The notes under the pieces are model-generated. The model was not told the DNA's origin. It saw only the letters and a list, made by a program, of their open reading frames with translations, and did no database searches. From the NCBI RefSeq assembly GCF_000365025.1, contig NZ_KB823011.1, forward strand, positions 558,001 to 622,000: a DNA stretch of 64,000 nucleotides. The letters run 5' to 3'. Below, in pieces: positions 5,995-30,769 of the stretch. This stretch comes from Robiginitomaculum antarcticum DSM 21748. Lineage in GTDB: Bacteria; Pseudomonadota; Alphaproteobacteria; Caulobacterales; Maricaulaceae. Within the stretch, counting starts at the first letter, position 1, and the number at the start of each line of letters is the position of its first letter. A program made the position numbers and the translations under genes.

Positions 5995-6806
5995 TGAGCG
6001 ATATACTCCAAAAAATCGCGGCGTATAAACATGACGAAGTCGACGCGCTTCGCCCCCATGCCGCAGACATAAAAGCGCGCGCCGCAGATGCGCCCGCCCC
6101 GCGTGGTTTTGCTCGCGCGCTCGCCGAAGCGCGGGGCCCTGCCCTAATTGCCGAAGTAAAAAAAGCGAGTCCATCTAAAGGACTTATCCGCGATAATTTC
6201 GATCCTGCCAATATTGCGCGGGCGTATCAGGCAGGCGGCGCAACATGCCTGTCTGTCTTAACGGACGGCCCGAGCTTTCAAGGCAGCGCGGACGGTTTCG
6301 CAGAAGTTCGCAAGGCCGTTAAACTCCCCCTGCTTCGCAAAGATTTCATGGTCGATCCGCTACAGATTTACGAATCCCGCGCTATGGGCGCAGATTGCAT
6401 ACTGATTATTATGGCGATGATCGAAGACGGTTTGGCTAAAGACCTTTTTAATATGGCTAAAGACCTGGGCATGGACTCTTTAATAGAGACACATGACATG
6501 GACGAACTTGACCGTGCATTAGTGCTCGGAGGGAATTTGATCGGTATTAATAACCGCAACCTCAAAACATTTGAAACAACCCTCACAACATTTAAAACCC
6601 TAGCGCCTCGCATTCCGATCGAGAAATTTTTGGTCGCCGAAAGCGGAATTTTCACTCCCGGTCATATACTTGATCTAACGGCTCATGGCGCGCGTGCCTT
6701 CCTTGTCGGGGAAAGCCTGATGCGGCAAGACAATGTTGAACTTGCGACGCGGCGACTTCTCGGTCTTTCGGCTACGCCACTTGACACAAAAGCGGAACAC
6801 ACATAG
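5994..6806 (+). CDS. trpC: Indole-3-glycerol phosphate synthase
   Basis: Closes the indole ring from CdRP to give indole-3-glycerol phosphate. The 270-residue TIM barrel has the expected [10 protein letters not shown] active-site segment, LRKDFMVDP, and the INNRNLKTF and AESGI motifs. It is a stand-alone TrpC, not fused to TrpF. Its last codons carry the LexA box of the next gene, so the end of the trp operon and the lexA promoter overlap physically. trpF, trpB and trpA are not in the window. Confidence 0.97.
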
Positions 6807-6809
6807 AAC
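6795..6809 (+). promoter_or_regulatory. LexA (SOS) box upstream of lexA
   Basis: The direct repeat GAAC-ACACATA-GAAC matches the known alphaproteobacterial LexA site GAAC-N7-GAAC. It spans the trpC stop codon and lies 55 bases before the lexA ATG, which fits LexA autoregulation. Confidence 0.85.
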
Positions 6810-6864: not shown

Positions 6865-7515
6865 ATGCTTACCCAGAAGCAACATGACTTACTGTTCTTT
6901 ATTGATAAACGTCTTAAAGCCGGTGGTGTGTCCCCGTCATATGACGAAATGAAAGACGCTCTGGGTCTGGCAAGCAAATCAGGCATTCACAGACTGATTA
7001 CAGCGCTTGAAGAACGCGGTTTTATCCGCCGTCTGCCGCATCGGGCCCGCGCGCTTGAAGTTCTTAAAATGCCGCAGATTGAAGCGGCTAAGCTGAAAAC
7101 CAAATCTTCGCCCCTGCCCGTTGCGGCTAATGATGAATACGAAATACCCTTTGTCGGGAAAATCGCTGCAGGTAATCCTATTGCAGCGATTGAAGACGCG
7201 CATCGCATGATTTCCGTGCCACCCAATATGATGGGCCCGGATCATTTTGCGCTCGAAATCGAAGGCGAATCCATGACCGGCGCTGGAATTCTAGACGGTG
7301 ATATCGTAGTCATTCGCAGAGCCAATACAGCAAGAAACAACCAAATCGTTGTGGCCTTGATTGACCAAGAGGAAGCGACGCTCAAAACGCTTAACAAAAC
7401 GTCGCTAGGCGTAGAATTGAGAGCCGAAAACCCGGATTATGAGACCCGTACTTTTGGACCTGACCGCGTTGAGGTTCAAGGCATTCTCGTCGGATTGGTC
7501 CGCAAATATCATTAG
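6865..7515 (+). CDS. lexA: LexA repressor
   Basis: SOS repressor that cleaves itself when activated by RecA. An upstream in-frame start exists, but ATG 6865 fits the family best. It follows GGAG at a spacing of about 7 bases and gives a 216-residue protein beginning [10 protein letters not shown]. Residues 1-65 are the winged-helix DNA-binding domain. The self-cleavage site is Ala102-Gly103 (KIAAGNP), and the Ser136/Lys174 dyad lies in GESMTGAG and ATLKTL. The GAAC-N7-GAAC box upstream indicates autoregulation. Its stop overlaps that of the convergent comEC by 4 bases. Confidence 0.97.
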
Positions 7516-25043: not shown

Positions 25044-26135
25044 TTATGCGCGTGCAGCGTCGCTTTTTGCGCGTGGCGGCTTACCAGCGACAAGCTCTTT
25101 GGCTTGCTCAATCCACTCACCGGAGACGATCTTCCCGCCCAAACCAAGATCTTCATCAAGTTTATTGGCTGTGGCTTCTTCCAAATCGGCAATGGATTTG
25201 AAGGTCGTATAACCGGCTTCTTCAAGCTTGCTCTTATAGGTCGGACCAACACCATCAATCAGTGAAATATCGTCGGCGGGTTTTTCAGCTTTCTTGGCTT
25301 TTGGAGCTTCAGCTTTTGGCGTTTCAGTTTTGGCCGATGCTTTTACAGGCTCTTCTTTAGCCGGCGCGGCCATAGCGGCCTCGTCAGCGGCAGACAGTTC
25401 TACAGGATTAGCCGATGCACCGAGATCAATACCGCGGCCGGCTGCGCTATCGGCCATGCCGTCAAGAATAGCGTCCGCCATCAGATCGCAATACAAACCG
25501 ATTGCGCGTGCTGCATCATCATTGCCCGGAATTGGGAAGTCAGCATTATCCGGATCACAGTTGGAGTCCAAAATAGCGATAACAGGAATGCCTAATGTAC
25601 GGGCTTCTTTGATCGCAATGCTTTCTTTATTGGTGTCGATCACAAACATCAGATCCGGAATTCCGCCCATGTCTTTGATCCCGCCAAGAGCGCGGTCAAG
25701 CTTATCGCGCTCGCGCGTCAGGTTCAGCAACTCTTTCTTGGTCAGGCCGGTATCAACTTCACCTTCAAACTTTGTTTCAAGCTCGCGCAGGCGCGAAATG
25801 GAACGCGATATTGTTGTCCAGTTCGTCATCATGCCGCCAAGCCAGCGGTGATTGACATAGTACTGCGCGCAGCGTTTAGCGCTATCGGCAACGATATCGG
25901 ATGCGGCGCGCTTCGTGCCGACAAACATAATACGGCCACCGGACGCAGCAACATCACGGGCCTGAACCAGAGCCTGATGAAGCAAAGGTACGGTTTGTGA
26001 TAAATCAAGGATATGGATGTTAGAACGGTCGCCAAAAATATAGGGCGCCATTTTTGGATTCCAGCGATGTGTCTGGTGACCAAAGTGAACGCCAGCTTCG
26101 AGCAATTGACGCATAGAAAATTCGGGTAGTGCCAT
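25044..26135 (-). CDS. rpsB: 30S ribosomal protein S2 with C-terminal helix-hairpin-helix extension
   Basis: Small-subunit ribosomal protein. ATG 26135 ([20 protein letters not shown]) follows a strong AGAAGGAG site; the frame upstream to 26255 is leader. Residues 1-245 are ordinary S2 ([33 protein letters not shown]). After this comes an Ala/Lys/Glu/Pro-rich linker (about 246-287) and a compact domain (about 288-352) with [15 protein letters not shown], a helix-hairpin-helix-like motif, followed by a basic tail. Total 363 residues against about 250 usually. NuoE in this window ends with a related domain. Confidence 0.95.
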
Positions 26136-26251
26136 GAGATATTCTCCTTCTCCGGTTTGGCTAACGCAGGCTTGCAAGTTTTCACTCACCGGACCGACAA
26201 CTTCTATGTAAAATGAAGCCGCCGCACCCACGCGTAAGATTTGAGCGGCCC

Positions 26252-26276
26252 GCATAGCAAAATTACGGCGCTATGC
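26252..26276 (-). terminator. Hairpin between dnaE and rpsB
   Basis: A 7-base perfect inverted repeat (GCATAGC / GCTATGC, loop 11 bases) lies 28 bases past the dnaE stop in the dnaE-rpsB spacer. There is no T run, so it may be a weak terminator or part of the rpsB promoter/leader region rather than a classical terminator. Confidence 0.35.
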
Positions 26277-26304: not shown

Positions 26305-29300
26305 TTAAAGCGCCGCCATCGTCTCAATGCGCGACACGCCGGGTACGCTTTTAAGACTCGCCAAAAACCGTTTATCCATGGAGACGCGGTCCGCCAGTTT
26401 AATCTCATATTCTCGCAGATTACCCAGCGGTGCAATAATATGCATGTCCCCGTAATATCGCGCCGGCGCATCAGCCAAACTGTCTATACGGGATTTCAGG
26501 GCTGAAAGCGCCTCGGCTGTATCAATATAGATTGTGACGCCGCGTGGCGGCTGCTCGCTTGTTTTACTTTTGGCCGGACCGCTTGCGCCGGACAGAATAT
26601 CAACGCTATTGGTGTAAAGCTTGATCTCTCCGTCGCGGTCTTCGATCTTGACCGCAATATCGAGCAATGTTCCCGATTGCATAATGTCGCGCTTTGCTGT
26701 CAGCAGATCCGCATTGACCAATGTTTCATAAGCTCCGGAGGGATCGGACATTTCTAGAAATGCAAAACGCTTTGATGAACGCTGGCTCATCCTCTCAACC
26801 CGCTTGTGAAGTACGCCGGCCATACGCACAGCGCGTTTGCCGGATTTAAAAGCCGTTTCGAGATCACAGGCCAGCGTATGGCTATGCTCAAGACGCTCAG
26901 CAAAACCTTCTAAAGGATGTCCGGAAAGATAAAAACCAACAGCTGATAATTCTTCATCAAGCGAACGCACATCATCCCAGGGCGGAGCGGATGTCAGCTC
27001 TTTTTCGACCATAATCTGCTCATCCGCACCGCCGAAGAGGCTGACCTGCGCAGAGCTGCGCTCTTCACTGGCGCGCGCGCCGATAGCTTGCAAATCAGCG
27101 GCAGAGGCCAAAAGCATGGCCCGGTTACCTTCAAGCGCGTCAAATGCGCCTGCGCGGGCCAAATTTTCCAGCGCGCGTTTATTGACAATGCGCGTGTCAA
27201 CGCGGCGTACAAAATCATAAATATCAGTAAACGCCCCGCCCTCCTCGCGCACTTTAACGACATGCTGCATAGCGGCAACGCCCACATTTTTTAGAGCGCC
27301 GAGCGCGTAAAGAATTTTGCCTTCGCGTACTTCGAAATCCGCAAAGCTCTGATTCACATCCGGCGCGACGACATCAAGTTCTAATCGTTTGGCCTCAGCG
27401 TAGAATTGCGCCAGTTTATCCGTATTGGCGATATCAAGCGCCATGGTCGCGGCCAAAAATTCGACCGGATGATGCGCTTTCAGATAGGCTGTCCGGAAAG
27501 AAATCATGGCATAGGCGGCCGCGTGGGATTTATTAAACCCATAACCGGCAAACTCATTCACGAGATCAAAAATCTCATTGGCCAGACGGCGGTCAACATC
27601 ATTCTTGGCCGCACCCTCAATAAAGCGAGAGCGCTGCCGATCCATCTCGGCCTGGTCTTTTTTACCCATAGCCCGGCGCAGCAAATCCGCCTCGCCAAGA
27701 GAAAAACCGGACAGCACCTGCGCGATTTGCATCACCTGTTCTTGGTAGATGATAATGCCGTAGGTTTCTTCAAGGATATCCTTGAGCATGGGGTGCGGAT
27801 ATTCGATATCCACGCGACCGAATTTACGGTCAATATAGGTATCGATATTCTTCATCGGCCCGGGACGATAAAGCGAGATAAGCGCCGTCAGCTCTTCAAT
27901 TGTGCCGGGCCGCATTTTGCGCAAAACGTCGCGCATACCCGAACTTTCCAGTTGGAACACACCATCAGACGCCCCTTCGGCCAACGGTTCATAGGCGCGC
28001 TTGTCCGTAACGCTGACGCGGTCAAGATCAATGGGCCGCCCTTGCGCGGCCAGATATTTCAGAGCTTTATCAATAACTGTGAGCGTTTTAAGACCCAGAA
28101 AGTCAAATTTGACCAGACCGGCTTTTTCAACCCATTTCATATTGAATTGCGTCGCGGGAATATCAGAGCGCGGATCACGGTAGAGCGGCACAAGTTCTGT
28201 CAGCGGCCGATCGCCAATAACAACGCCCGCAGCATGGGTCGACGCATTTCGGTAAAGACCTTCAAGCTCCAACGCAAAATCCAGAAGCTGACGCACAGCC
28301 GGCTCCGTATCGCGCTGCTCACGAAGTCGCGGTTCCATAGCAATTGCTTGGCGTAATGTGACGGGATTAGCGGGATTAGCCGGAACCATTTTGGCCAGAC
28401 GGTCCACCTGCCCCAGCGGCATTTGAAGCACGCGGCCGACATCACGCACGACCGCACGGGCCTGTAACGTACCGAAGGTGATAATATGGGCAACTTGGTC
28501 TTTGCCATATTTGCGCTGAACATATTGAATGACTTCGCTGCGCCGCTCCTGACAGAAATCAATATCGAAATCGGGCATGGAGACCCGCTCTGGATTGAGA
28601 AAGCGCTCAAACAGCAAACCGTAACGTAACGGGTCCAGATCGGTAATGAGCAGCGACCACGCCACAACAGAGCCCGCGCCGGAACCCCGACCCGGCCCTA
28701 CCGGAATGCCCTGCTCTTTGGCCCAGCGGATAAAATCCGAAACGATCAGAAAATAACCCGGAAACCCCATTTGCGCGATCACATCAAGTTCGAAATCCAG
28801 ACGTTCACGATAGGCGGGCTCATCCGCTGACATCTCATCGAGAGAGCGTAGCATGTCCAGACGCGCGGTCAGACCGTCATGGGCCTGCGCGCGCAATATA
28901 TCGGTTTCACTCGTATTCTCATCACCAAAACCCGGCAGGATGGGGGCGCGCTTGGGCGATGCATAGGCGCAGCGCGTGGCAATATCGATTGTGGCGTTCA
29001 GTGCTTCGGGCAAATCTTCGAACAATTTGACCATCATTTCGGGCGATTTTAAAAAATGCTCGGATGTCACTTTGCGCCGGTCTTTTTCCAGAACGTAACT
29101 TCCTTCGGATATAGCCAGTAATGCGTCATGGGCCGCATGCATAGAGCGGTCTTCGAAAAACGGCTCATTAGTGGCAACAATAGCAATGCCGCGCCCGTAA
29201 GCCTGCTCCAGCAGCCAGCTTTCAGTTTGCGCTTCATTCGGCTCGTCATGACGCTGCAATTCGATATATAAGCGGTCACCGTATATTGACGCTAATTTGG

Positions 29301-29793
29301 ACAGCCAAGCTTGCGCCTCTTCAAAACGCCCTTGACGCACAAACCGATCCAGCGCGCCGTCATAACCCCCGGTCAGCACAATCACGCCCTCGCTGCGCGC
29401 CTCTAATGTACTGGCCAGAATATGCGGCATATCCGTGGCTGACACATCAAGATAGGCTGCAGAAGACAATGCCATAAGATGGCCGTAACCGGTTTCGTTT
29501 TGCGCTAGCAAAACCAGTGTTCCATCCGGGTCGCGGCGGGTTTGACCGGGCTGCCCCGGCAGTTCTAAATCAATAGATAATGTACAGCCAATAATGGGTT
29601 GTACGCCGCGCTCTTTGAGGGTCTCGCTAAATTCCAGCGCCCCGCACATATTGTTACTGTCCGTTAAACCGATAGCCGGCATGCGGTGGTCATAACACCA
29701 TTTGGCAAGCGCCTTGAGCGTGACTGCGCCCTCAAGCAAAGAATAAGGCGAGCGCGCGCGCAAATGTATAAAGTCAGGCTCACGCTGTGCCAT
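26305..29793 (-). CDS. dnaE: DNA polymerase III alpha subunit
   Basis: Replicative DNA polymerase. The 1162-residue protein has the N-terminal PHP domain (about 8-75 onward), the catalytic palm with PDFDIDFCQERR and the helix-hairpin-helix/OB C-terminal region (OB near residues 980-1070). This is the full-length replicative DnaE1 type, not the SOS DnaE2 (ImuC) type, judging from its length and PHP sequence. GGAG lies 6 bases before the ATG. A 30-codon gene with an SOS promoter ends only 21 bases upstream, so dnaE may be partly transcribed from that promoter. Confidence 0.96.
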   Translation of the reverse strand: MAQREPDFIHLRARSPYSLLEGAVTLKALAKWCYDHRMPAIGLTDSNNMCGALEFSETLKERGVQPIIGCTLSIDLELPGQPGQTRRDPDGTLVLLAQNETGYGHLMALSSAAYLDVSATDMPHILASTLEARSEGVIVLTGGYDGALDRFVRQGRFEEAQAWLSKLASIYGDRLYIELQRHDEPNEAQTESWLLEQAYGRGIAIVATNEPFFEDRSMHAAHDALLAISEGSYVLEKDRRKVTSEHFLKSPEMMVKLFEDLPEALNATIDIATRCAYASPKRAPILPGFGDENTSETDILRAQAHDGLTARLDMLRSLDEMSADEPAYRERLDFELDVIAQMGFPGYFLIVSDFIRWAKEQGIPVGPGRGSGAGSVVAWSLLITDLDPLRYGLLFERFLNPERVSMPDFDIDFCQERRSEVIQYVQRKYGKDQVAHIITFGTLQARAVVRDVGRVLQMPLGQVDRLAKMVPANPANPVTLRQAIAMEPRLREQRDTEPAVRQLLDFALELEGLYRNASTHAAGVVIGDRPLTELVPLYRDPRSDIPATQFNMKWVEKAGLVKFDFLGLKTLTVIDKALKYLAAQGRPIDLDRVSVTDKRAYEPLAEGASDGVFQLESSGMRDVLRKMRPGTIEELTALISLYRPGPMKNIDTYIDRKFGRVDIEYPHPMLKDILEETYGIIIYQEQVMQIAQVLSGFSLGEADLLRRAMGKKDQAEMDRQRSRFIEGAAKNDVDRRLANEIFDLVNEFAGYGFNKSHAAAYAMISFRTAYLKAHHPVEFLAATMALDIANTDKLAQFYAEAKRLELDVVAPDVNQSFADFEVREGKILYALGALKNVGVAAMQHVVKVREEGGAFTDIYDFVRRVDTRIVNKRALENLARAGAFDALEGNRAMLLASAADLQAIGARASEERSSAQVSLFGGADEQIMVEKELTSAPPWDDVRSLDEELSAVGFYLSGHPLEGFAERLEHSHTLACDLETAFKSGKRAVRMAGVLHKRVERMSQRSSKRFAFLEMSDPSGAYETLVNADLLTAKRDIMQSGTLLDIAVKIEDRDGEIKLYTNSVDILSGASGPAKSKTSEQPPRGVTIYIDTAEALSALKSRIDSLADAPARYYGDMHIIAPLGNLREYEIKLADRVSMDKRFLASLKSVPGVSRIETMAAL

Positions 29794-29814: not shown

Positions 29815-29907
29815 CTAACCCCCGATGATCATCATCCAAACAGTCATAACCGTAATAAAGCCCGCGACAACCATTCCTGTCGACAAATCCACAACCAACT
29901 GTTTCAT
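29815..29907 (-). CDS. Small SOS-controlled membrane peptide (SidA-like in character)
   Basis: A 30-codon open frame (ATG 29907, TAG 29815-29817) with a GGGAG ribosome binding site 6 bases before the ATG. The peptide begins MKQLVVDLSTG, and residues 12-28 are almost all hydrophobic with Trp24 and two terminal glycines, enough for one membrane helix with a short N-terminal cytoplasmic part. A perfect LexA box over a strong promoter lies 20-70 bases upstream, so SOS induction is likely. Caulobacter SidA is a 29-residue SOS-induced inner-membrane peptide that blocks division at FtsW/FtsN; size, topology and control match, but sequence homology was not tested. dnaE follows after 21 bases. Confidence 0.7.
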   Translation of the reverse strand: MKQLVVDLSTGMVVAGFITVMTVWMMIIGG

Positions 29908-29926
29908 AACTCACTCCCATTTTTAT

Positions 29927-29975
29927 GTTCTTGTTACGTTCGGATTATATATTCCCCTTTTGTTCTTTTCGTCAA
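29927..29975 (-). promoter_or_regulatory. SOS promoter: sigma-70-like -35/-10 with LexA box
   Basis: On the minus strand: TTGACG (29970-29975), an 18-base spacer and TATATA/TATAAT (29944-29951). The LexA direct repeat GAAC-GTAACAA-GAAC (29927-29941) follows at once and covers the expected transcription start. LexA bound here would block initiation. It reads into the 30-codon gene and dnaE. Confidence 0.85.
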
Positions 29976-30005: not shown

Positions 30006-30060
30006 TGTGGATAAGTCAGTGAAGTTATCTGAGGATAAACTGTGCATGGCCTGTGGACAG
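30006..30060. promoter_or_regulatory. Cluster of DnaA-box-like sites
   Basis: One perfect DnaA box TGTGGATAA (30006-30014), one single-mismatch site TGAGGATAA (30030-30038) and one weaker site TGTGGACAG (30052-30060) lie within 55 bases, all in the same orientation. They sit between the lolD stop and the SOS promoter. Binding by DnaA is an inference from motif match only. Confidence 0.45.
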
Positions 30061-30073
30061 ACCACAATAAGTC

Positions 30074-30769
30074 CTAGCTGTAAGGAACAATCGCCCCGTC
30101 GCGCACTGTAACGACGCGGTCCATATAGTCTGTCAGGGTCATATTATGGGTCGCGACAAGCGCGGACACGCCTTCGGTGCGGGTTAGATCAAACAGGCTT
30201 TGAAAGACATTGCCCGATGTCGTTGGATCCAGGTTGCCTGTGGGTTCATCCGCCAAAATTATGCTCGGCTTATTTGACATAGCGCGGGCAATGGCCACGC
30301 GCTGCTGCTCCCCGCCCGACATTTGGCCGGGTTGATGCTCCATACGTTCGGCTAGCCCCATAACGGTCAGCAAGCGCGCGGCTTCTTTGCGCGCAAGCGT
30401 TTGCGGCACGCCCGCCGCCATTTGCGGCAAAGCCACATTATCTATTGCGTTAAATTCACGCAGTAAATGGTGGAATTGATAGACAAACCCCACTTCTTCG
30501 CGGCGGATGCGCGTGCGCGCGTCATCTTTAAGGCGCAGACATTCCTGACCTTTAATCCAGACTTCACCCGCCGTCGGTGTCTCCAGTAAACCCGCCGCAT
30601 GGAGCAGGCTTGATTTACCACTCCCTGACGGGCCGATTAAGCCGACAACTTCTCCGGGATAGATATCCAGATTAGCTGAGAGCAGAACGTTCAAAACGCT
30701 CTCCCCGCTTTGATATTGGCGGGTCAGATTGCGCACAGATAATACGGGTGTTGCGGAGCGGTTATTCAA
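30074..30769 (-). CDS. lolD: Lipoprotein-releasing ABC transporter ATPase
   Basis: ATPase that powers release of outer-membrane lipoproteins to LolA. The 231-residue protein shows Walker [10 protein letters not shown], signature [15 protein letters not shown] and Walker [12 protein letters not shown]. It overlaps the permease gene by 8 bases, and the pair forms the transporter. MacB-type exporters share the fold, but the neighbour supports Lol. Confidence 0.93.

Follow-up and report, generated by a model that had tools for sequence, protein, structure and literature searches.

The closest described counterpart of the locus analyzed here is SidA of Caulobacter crescentus, an SOS-induced peptide of 29 residues that interacts with FtsW and FtsN (PMC4211646) and that a low-confidence model places on TM7 of FtsW (PMC13396833). 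YneA of B. subtilis, SosA of S. aureus and ChiZ of M. tuberculosis are likewise described as small, damage-induced membrane inhibitors of late division, with an action on FtsW that is reported as shown for YneA and as modelled for SosA and ChiZ (PMC13396833), while the genes yneA, divS, chiZ and sidA have been termed unrelated (PMC4211646). The gene described below encodes 30 residues, as opposed to the 29 of SidA, and its product would resemble these inhibitors in kind, although ChiZ carries a LysM domain (PMC13396833), for which a peptide of this length is too short. SulA of E. coli belongs to the same class of SOS-induced division inhibitors but disrupts the polymerization of FtsZ (PMC4211646), whereas the product considered here is a predicted membrane helix. 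DidA of Caulobacter is also a small single-helix inhibitor acting on FtsW/I/N (PMC4211646), and it differs from the present peptide in its 71 residues and in being independent of the SOS response and controlled by DriD.

We propose that a short frame in the window, by which we mean the whole stretch of 64,000 nucleotides that was analyzed, is very probably sidA, a LexA-repressed and damage-induced gene for a divisome inhibitor that is probably co-transcribed with dnaE. The frame lies at 29815–29907 on the minus strand and consists of 30 codons and a stop (product MKQLVVDLSTGMVVAGFITVMTVWMMIIGG), and it is preceded by the Shine-Dalgarno-like sequence GGGAG (29914–29918, minus strand), 6 nt 5′ of the ATG at 29907, with G-rich stretches visible by eye at a comparable distance from the start in relatives. 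On the same strand and after a gap of 21 nt follows dnaE, the gene of the DNA polymerase III alpha subunit (26305–29793, minus strand; NF004226, 1408 bits, cut-off 1002), and the upstream neighbor, also on this strand, is a gene for a lolD-like ABC transporter ATPase (30074–30769, minus strand), for which TIGR02211 is the best model at a score below its cut-off. The minus strand thus reads lolD, DnaA box, −35 element, imperfect LexA-type box, −10 element, exact LexA box, GGGAG, the frame and dnaE. Structure prediction gives the peptide one helix over residues 2–29 (mean pLDDT 95.3, pTM 0.50), and it has no match in scans of Pfam, NCBIfam and PHROG. The original prediction, made from the letters of the DNA, had described a mostly hydrophobic frame of 30 codons directly upstream of dnaE with GGGAG 6 bases before its ATG, and the locus is as it had been described. 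As a separate observation on the window, the rpsB frame (25044–26255, minus strand; 403 codons) matches ribosomal protein S2 at 51–266 and continues past the match by over 100 C-terminal residues, and its true start may be about 40 codons inward.

The exact LexA box GAACGTAACAAGAAC (29927–29941, minus strand) lies immediately 3′ of the −10 element, where the repeat GAAC-GTAACAA-GAAC had been reported, and an imperfect LexA-type box GAACAAAAGGGGAAT (29951–29965, minus strand), absent from the original prediction, falls within the promoter spacer. The imperfect box is identical in sequence in the nearest relative (G002), and several relatives have a comparable second box some 15–25 nt ahead of the main one. 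The promoter (29944–29975, minus strand) is composed of TTGACG at 29970–29975 and TATATAAT at 29944–29951. Both elements of the TTGACG/TATAAT promoter originally proposed are present, with the qualification that TATAAT (29944–29949) stands 20 nt from TTGACG and that TATATA, at 18 nt, is the better −10 register. A consensus sigma-70 scan finds no promoter at this site because its rule calls for a spacing of 16–18 nt and a final T, and TATAAT is at 20 nt while TATATA ends in A; by eye, many relatives have a −35 element of the TTGAC type.

The box motif occurs at chance frequency and hence is uninformative by itself, with 2 exact copies in the 64-kb window versus 1.55 expected and, genome-wide, 45 copies versus 61 for the reversed control. 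The other exact copy in the window (6795–6809, plus strand) is the box of lexA, the repressor gene (6865–7515, plus strand; TIGR00498, 170 bits), and is the motif reference for this genome, and recA (match from G000:C1:206598) has the box GAACAAAATTAGAAC about 170 nt upstream. The box at 29927–29941 is built like those before lexA and recA in this genome, and the LexA motif of Caulobacter has been published as GTTC-N7-GTTC (PMC12700426; PMC9578287). What raises the finding above chance is the conservation of peptide and box together before dnaE, the presence of the peptide throughout the family and purifying selection on it. Box, promoter and conservation together support, at the level of sequence, a putative SOS control of the peptide gene.

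Upstream of the promoter there is also an exact DnaA box, TTATCCACA (30006–30014, minus strand), the sole exact one in the 64-kb window, where 0.40 are expected by chance. Within the order, a DnaA box with at most one mismatch is present in 18 of 56 regions (30 shuffled motifs give a mean of 1.3 and a maximum of 5). An exact DnaA box is found in 4 of 79 Caulobacteraceae regions as against 0 across 30 shuffled motifs, and one with one mismatch in 10 of 79, a signal that is weak and unconvincing there, given that shuffled motifs average 1.5 and reach as many as 10.

The 30-codon frame is a real gene under purifying selection as protein. In our survey of the order, dnaE was matched in 59 of 61 genomes, and the region upstream of it was inspected in the window and 55 relatives, the survey leaving out two genomes in which dnaE was unmatched (G003, G005) and three in which the match had no N-terminus (G022, G026, G036). 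A peptide of this type precedes dnaE at 48 of these 56 loci, and the counts by family are 31 of 32 in the window organism's own family, 6 of 6 in f3, 5 of 6 in f4, 6 of 6 in f5 and 0 of 6 in f2. These counts include peptide starts and f4 and f5 members picked by hand by place, hydrophobicity and box, the f4 and f5 assignment depending in addition on a 90.3% profile match that has no shuffle control. At each of the 48 peptide loci a box lies no more than 130 nt from the start, exact in 40 and with one mismatch in 8, seven of which belong to the own family. At one locus (G028:C1:874723-877784) dnaE is matched as two pieces, each marked with an in-frame TGA, and L065 holds its start.

Searched with its own profile, the own family has the peptide in 119 of its 137 genomes, among them 92 of the 95 with a completeness of at least 90% and a contamination of at most 5%; in all 30 loci fetched from this search dnaE adjoins on the same strand, 12–140 nt downstream. 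The median dN/dS is about 0.17 over 37 pairs with usable dS, taken from 26 distinct sequences in pairs of at least 60% peptide identity. Codons with a single change, counted over all pairs of at least 60% identity, are synonymous in 536 cases and nonsynonymous in 170, in pairs that are non-independent. Between the window and G002, 7 codons differ, of which five have single changes that are all synonymous and two have double changes that alter the residue.

The link to SidA is provided by family f3, which includes the genus Caulobacter (G050). The peptide is present in 72 of 75 genomes of that genus, including all 60 of high quality. A scan with peptides of this genus gave 95 confirmed loci, and the best 80 of these are mostly from Caulobacter and Phenylobacterium, with one from Brevundimonas and several from metagenome bins. 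Among these 80, dnaE adjoins in 79, the contig of the 80th stopping 135 nt past the peptide start, and in 79 a box lies within 150 nt with no more than one mismatch. One genome of the genus (G132) coincides with that of C. vibrioides DSM 9893 in the contig number and coordinates of a box, and the two appear to be identical. In C. vibrioides DSM 9893, where inspection covered the 58 of 97 exact boxes with at most 4 G/C in the spacer, the lone strongly hydrophobic frame of 24–40 residues near an inspected box is the peptide before dnaE, which has 29 residues counted from the nearest ATG. The NCBIfam SidA model NF033228 scores this peptide at 72.4 bits (cut-off 35), two further Caulobacter peptides score alike at about 72 bits, and all 16 of the Caulobacteraceae peptides are matched by the model at E values up to 1. 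By the NCBIfam model, therefore, the Caulobacter peptide at the place before dnaE is SidA. We take sidA to be also CC_1927, adjoining CC_1926. In the literature Caulobacter dnaE is designated CC1926 (PMC1839093) and sidA CCNA_02004 (PMC10769358), and the published size, SOS induction and locus identifiers of SidA agree with this identification.

Unlike the Caulobacter peptides, the window peptide has no BLASTP match to SidA of C. vibrioides and is not recognized by NF033228, which matches neither the window peptide nor any of 30 members of its family, nor any of 9 members of f4 and f5. The failure of NF033228 reflects a model of limited reach, rather than a biological criterion, and the blank BLASTP result made a comparison of profiles necessary. 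Aligned by hhalign, the profile of the window family matches that of Caulobacteraceae SidA at 94.4% (E 8.4e-8), with a score of 29.7, while the best of 200 column shuffles, each confined to the N-terminal part and to the hydrophobic part, reached 18.4, and none was as good as the real alignment. Near residue 7, all 30 window-family members and all 16 Caulobacteraceae peptides have an acidic residue in one shared column, and the C-terminal parts of the two groups differ (WMMIIGG as opposed to CSVAxLxA types). The peptide thus has the LexA box, the length of about 29 residues, the single predicted hydrophobic helix, the profile kinship and the place before dnaE that characterize SidA. The profile match, the acidic column, the shared place and the LexA boxes make common descent the best reading, and they support the window gene as a divergent, syntenic ortholog of sidA; the original designation as SidA-type is right as to descent, since in Caulobacter this position is taken by SidA and the profiles match. 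In the openly licensed literature we found no report of sidA before dnaE or of SidA outside the Caulobacteraceae. The wider distribution of sidA may already be known elsewhere, and by sequence the window gene would be a divergent member of the known SidA group.

Kin of the peptide are likely to occupy the place before dnaE in other alphaproteobacterial families as well. Run against 289 genomes of the class, a profile of the Caulobacterales peptides matched 11, of which 3 are Caulobacterales and 2 are unrelated. The six matches from outside the order (families f8, f14 and f141) lie 18–207 nt ahead of dnaE and have a LexA-type box, exact in five and with one mismatch in one. The two unrelated matches (L273, L275), both weak, were rejected as different genes with neither box nor dnaE.

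We also surveyed the class independently of the profile, in 90 of the 121 non-Caulobacterales genomes that have a dnaE match, the sample comprising the 30 loci with the best scores and 60 picked by hand down the list, the last 20 of them leaning to larger genomes. An exact box lies within 500 nt before dnaE in 15 of the 90, as compared with 4 for the reversed motif, and 12 of the 15 boxed regions (12 of 90 genomes, in 10 families) have a hydrophobic frame of 22–65 residues starting 5–110 nt past the box. If every one of these 15 regions is given a single box at a random position, 4.0 such frames are expected and at least 12 arose in 0 of 200,000 simulations, a comparison that gives a slight advantage to the real data in that two real regions have two boxes. 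When 624 small frames were ranked by the Caulobacterales profile, the top 8 were all boxed, with E values below 0.1 in the first 5 only and with two (L281, L284) belonging to genomes already matched by this profile in the search of the class; of the remaining four boxed frames one ranked 12th and three fell outside the first 22. Kinship to the Caulobacterales peptides is therefore well supported for some of the 12 boxed frames, not for all.

The proximity of dnaE admits a different reading, in which the frame serves chiefly as a leader or coupling cistron that tunes dnaE by translation and the box puts dnaE under SOS control. We consider this improbable. It draws support from the short distance between frame and dnaE, which is 21 nt here and has a median of 32 nt (range 18–129) at 79 Caulobacteraceae loci and of 45 nt (range −2 to 220) at 31 loci of the own family, so that in many genomes there is little space for a separate dnaE promoter. 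It is likewise favored by exact boxes before dnaE that have no SidA-like frame, in G007 (own family, L064), in G059 (f4, L063), in the opposite orientation in G057 (f2, L055) and in 3 of the 15 boxed regions from other orders. These frameless loci suggest that the LexA-type box before dnaE may also serve dnaE. Family f2 as a whole has no such peptide before dnaE (0 of 6), though LexA is found in 6 of 6, and two of its genomes have at that place a 20-codon, mildly hydrophobic frame of a different sequence. The original prediction had held that relatives in which the box remains and the frame is broken would tell against the gene, and such an arrangement does exist at 3 of 56 loci (G007, G059, G057) without overturning it. 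Against a leader stand the conservation of the peptide sequence as protein, the variability of the gap and the division block that plasmid-made SidA is reported to cause in Caulobacter (PMC4211646). The RNA fold of 29940–29770 is, moreover, neither stable nor significant (z −0.36) and a scan of the whole window finds no Rfam family, and on these grounds an RNA leader or attenuator was rejected.

It is very improbable that the gene encodes an SOS-induced, membrane-depolarizing toxic peptide of the TisB or DinQ kind instead of a divisome inhibitor. The gross design is common to both, as TisB too is a short single-helix membrane peptide under SOS control, and toxic peptides of this type are controlled by a structured 5′ leader or an antisense RNA. 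DinQ is similarly described as a short, SOS-controlled membrane peptide (PMC3567139). The present message has no significant fold over 29940–29770, however, and the profile and syntenic kinship with SidA and the acidic residue at the start of the helix in 30 of 30 family members argue for the divisome. That the frame has arisen by chance, and that only the promoter and dnaE matter, is scarcely credible: the chance frequency of the box motif is in its favor, but conservation in the family and the codon evidence contradict it, and it was rejected because 119 of the family's 137 genomes have the peptide and dN/dS is about 0.17.

The window gene as sidA would operate as follows. LexA would bind the exact and imperfect boxes that overlap the TTGACG/TATATAAT promoter and repress it, and, as in the known SOS pathway, DNA damage would activate RecA, LexA would cleave itself and the promoter would fire. 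From the mRNA a 30-residue inner-membrane peptide with a single helix is predicted to be made, and, if it acts as in Caulobacter, it would inhibit the septal wall-synthesis complex FtsW/FtsI/FtsN and put off division until repair. The FtsW/FtsN-mediated block is thus carried over from Caulobacter by analogy; FtsW is encoded in this genome (344.8 bits, cut-off 337.5). As dnaE starts 21 nt past the stop of the peptide gene on the same strand, the transcript would probably continue into it, and checkpoint peptide and replicative polymerase would then be induced jointly.

The occurrence of LexA-boxed membrane micro-ORFs before dnaE in 12 of 90 genomes outside the order suggests that the arrangement is old. 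Somewhat tentatively, we raise the possibility that sidA and dnaE form a two-gene SOS unit of ancient origin in the Alphaproteobacteria, from which the peptide has been lost in some lineages with dnaE still under LexA, and in which a promoter controlled by LexA and perhaps touched by DnaA would lead both to a division block and to more replicative polymerase. If this is true, division would be halted for a time while the supply of DNA polymerase III goes on. Of 39 scanned members from other families of the order, the current NCBI model of SidA recognizes 0, and the kindred 30-residue gene at 48 of 56 loci suggests that the damage checkpoint of Caulobacter is not an oddity of that genus. A linked control of division block and replicative polymerase would also be a testable idea on how these bacteria handle a damaged chromosome.
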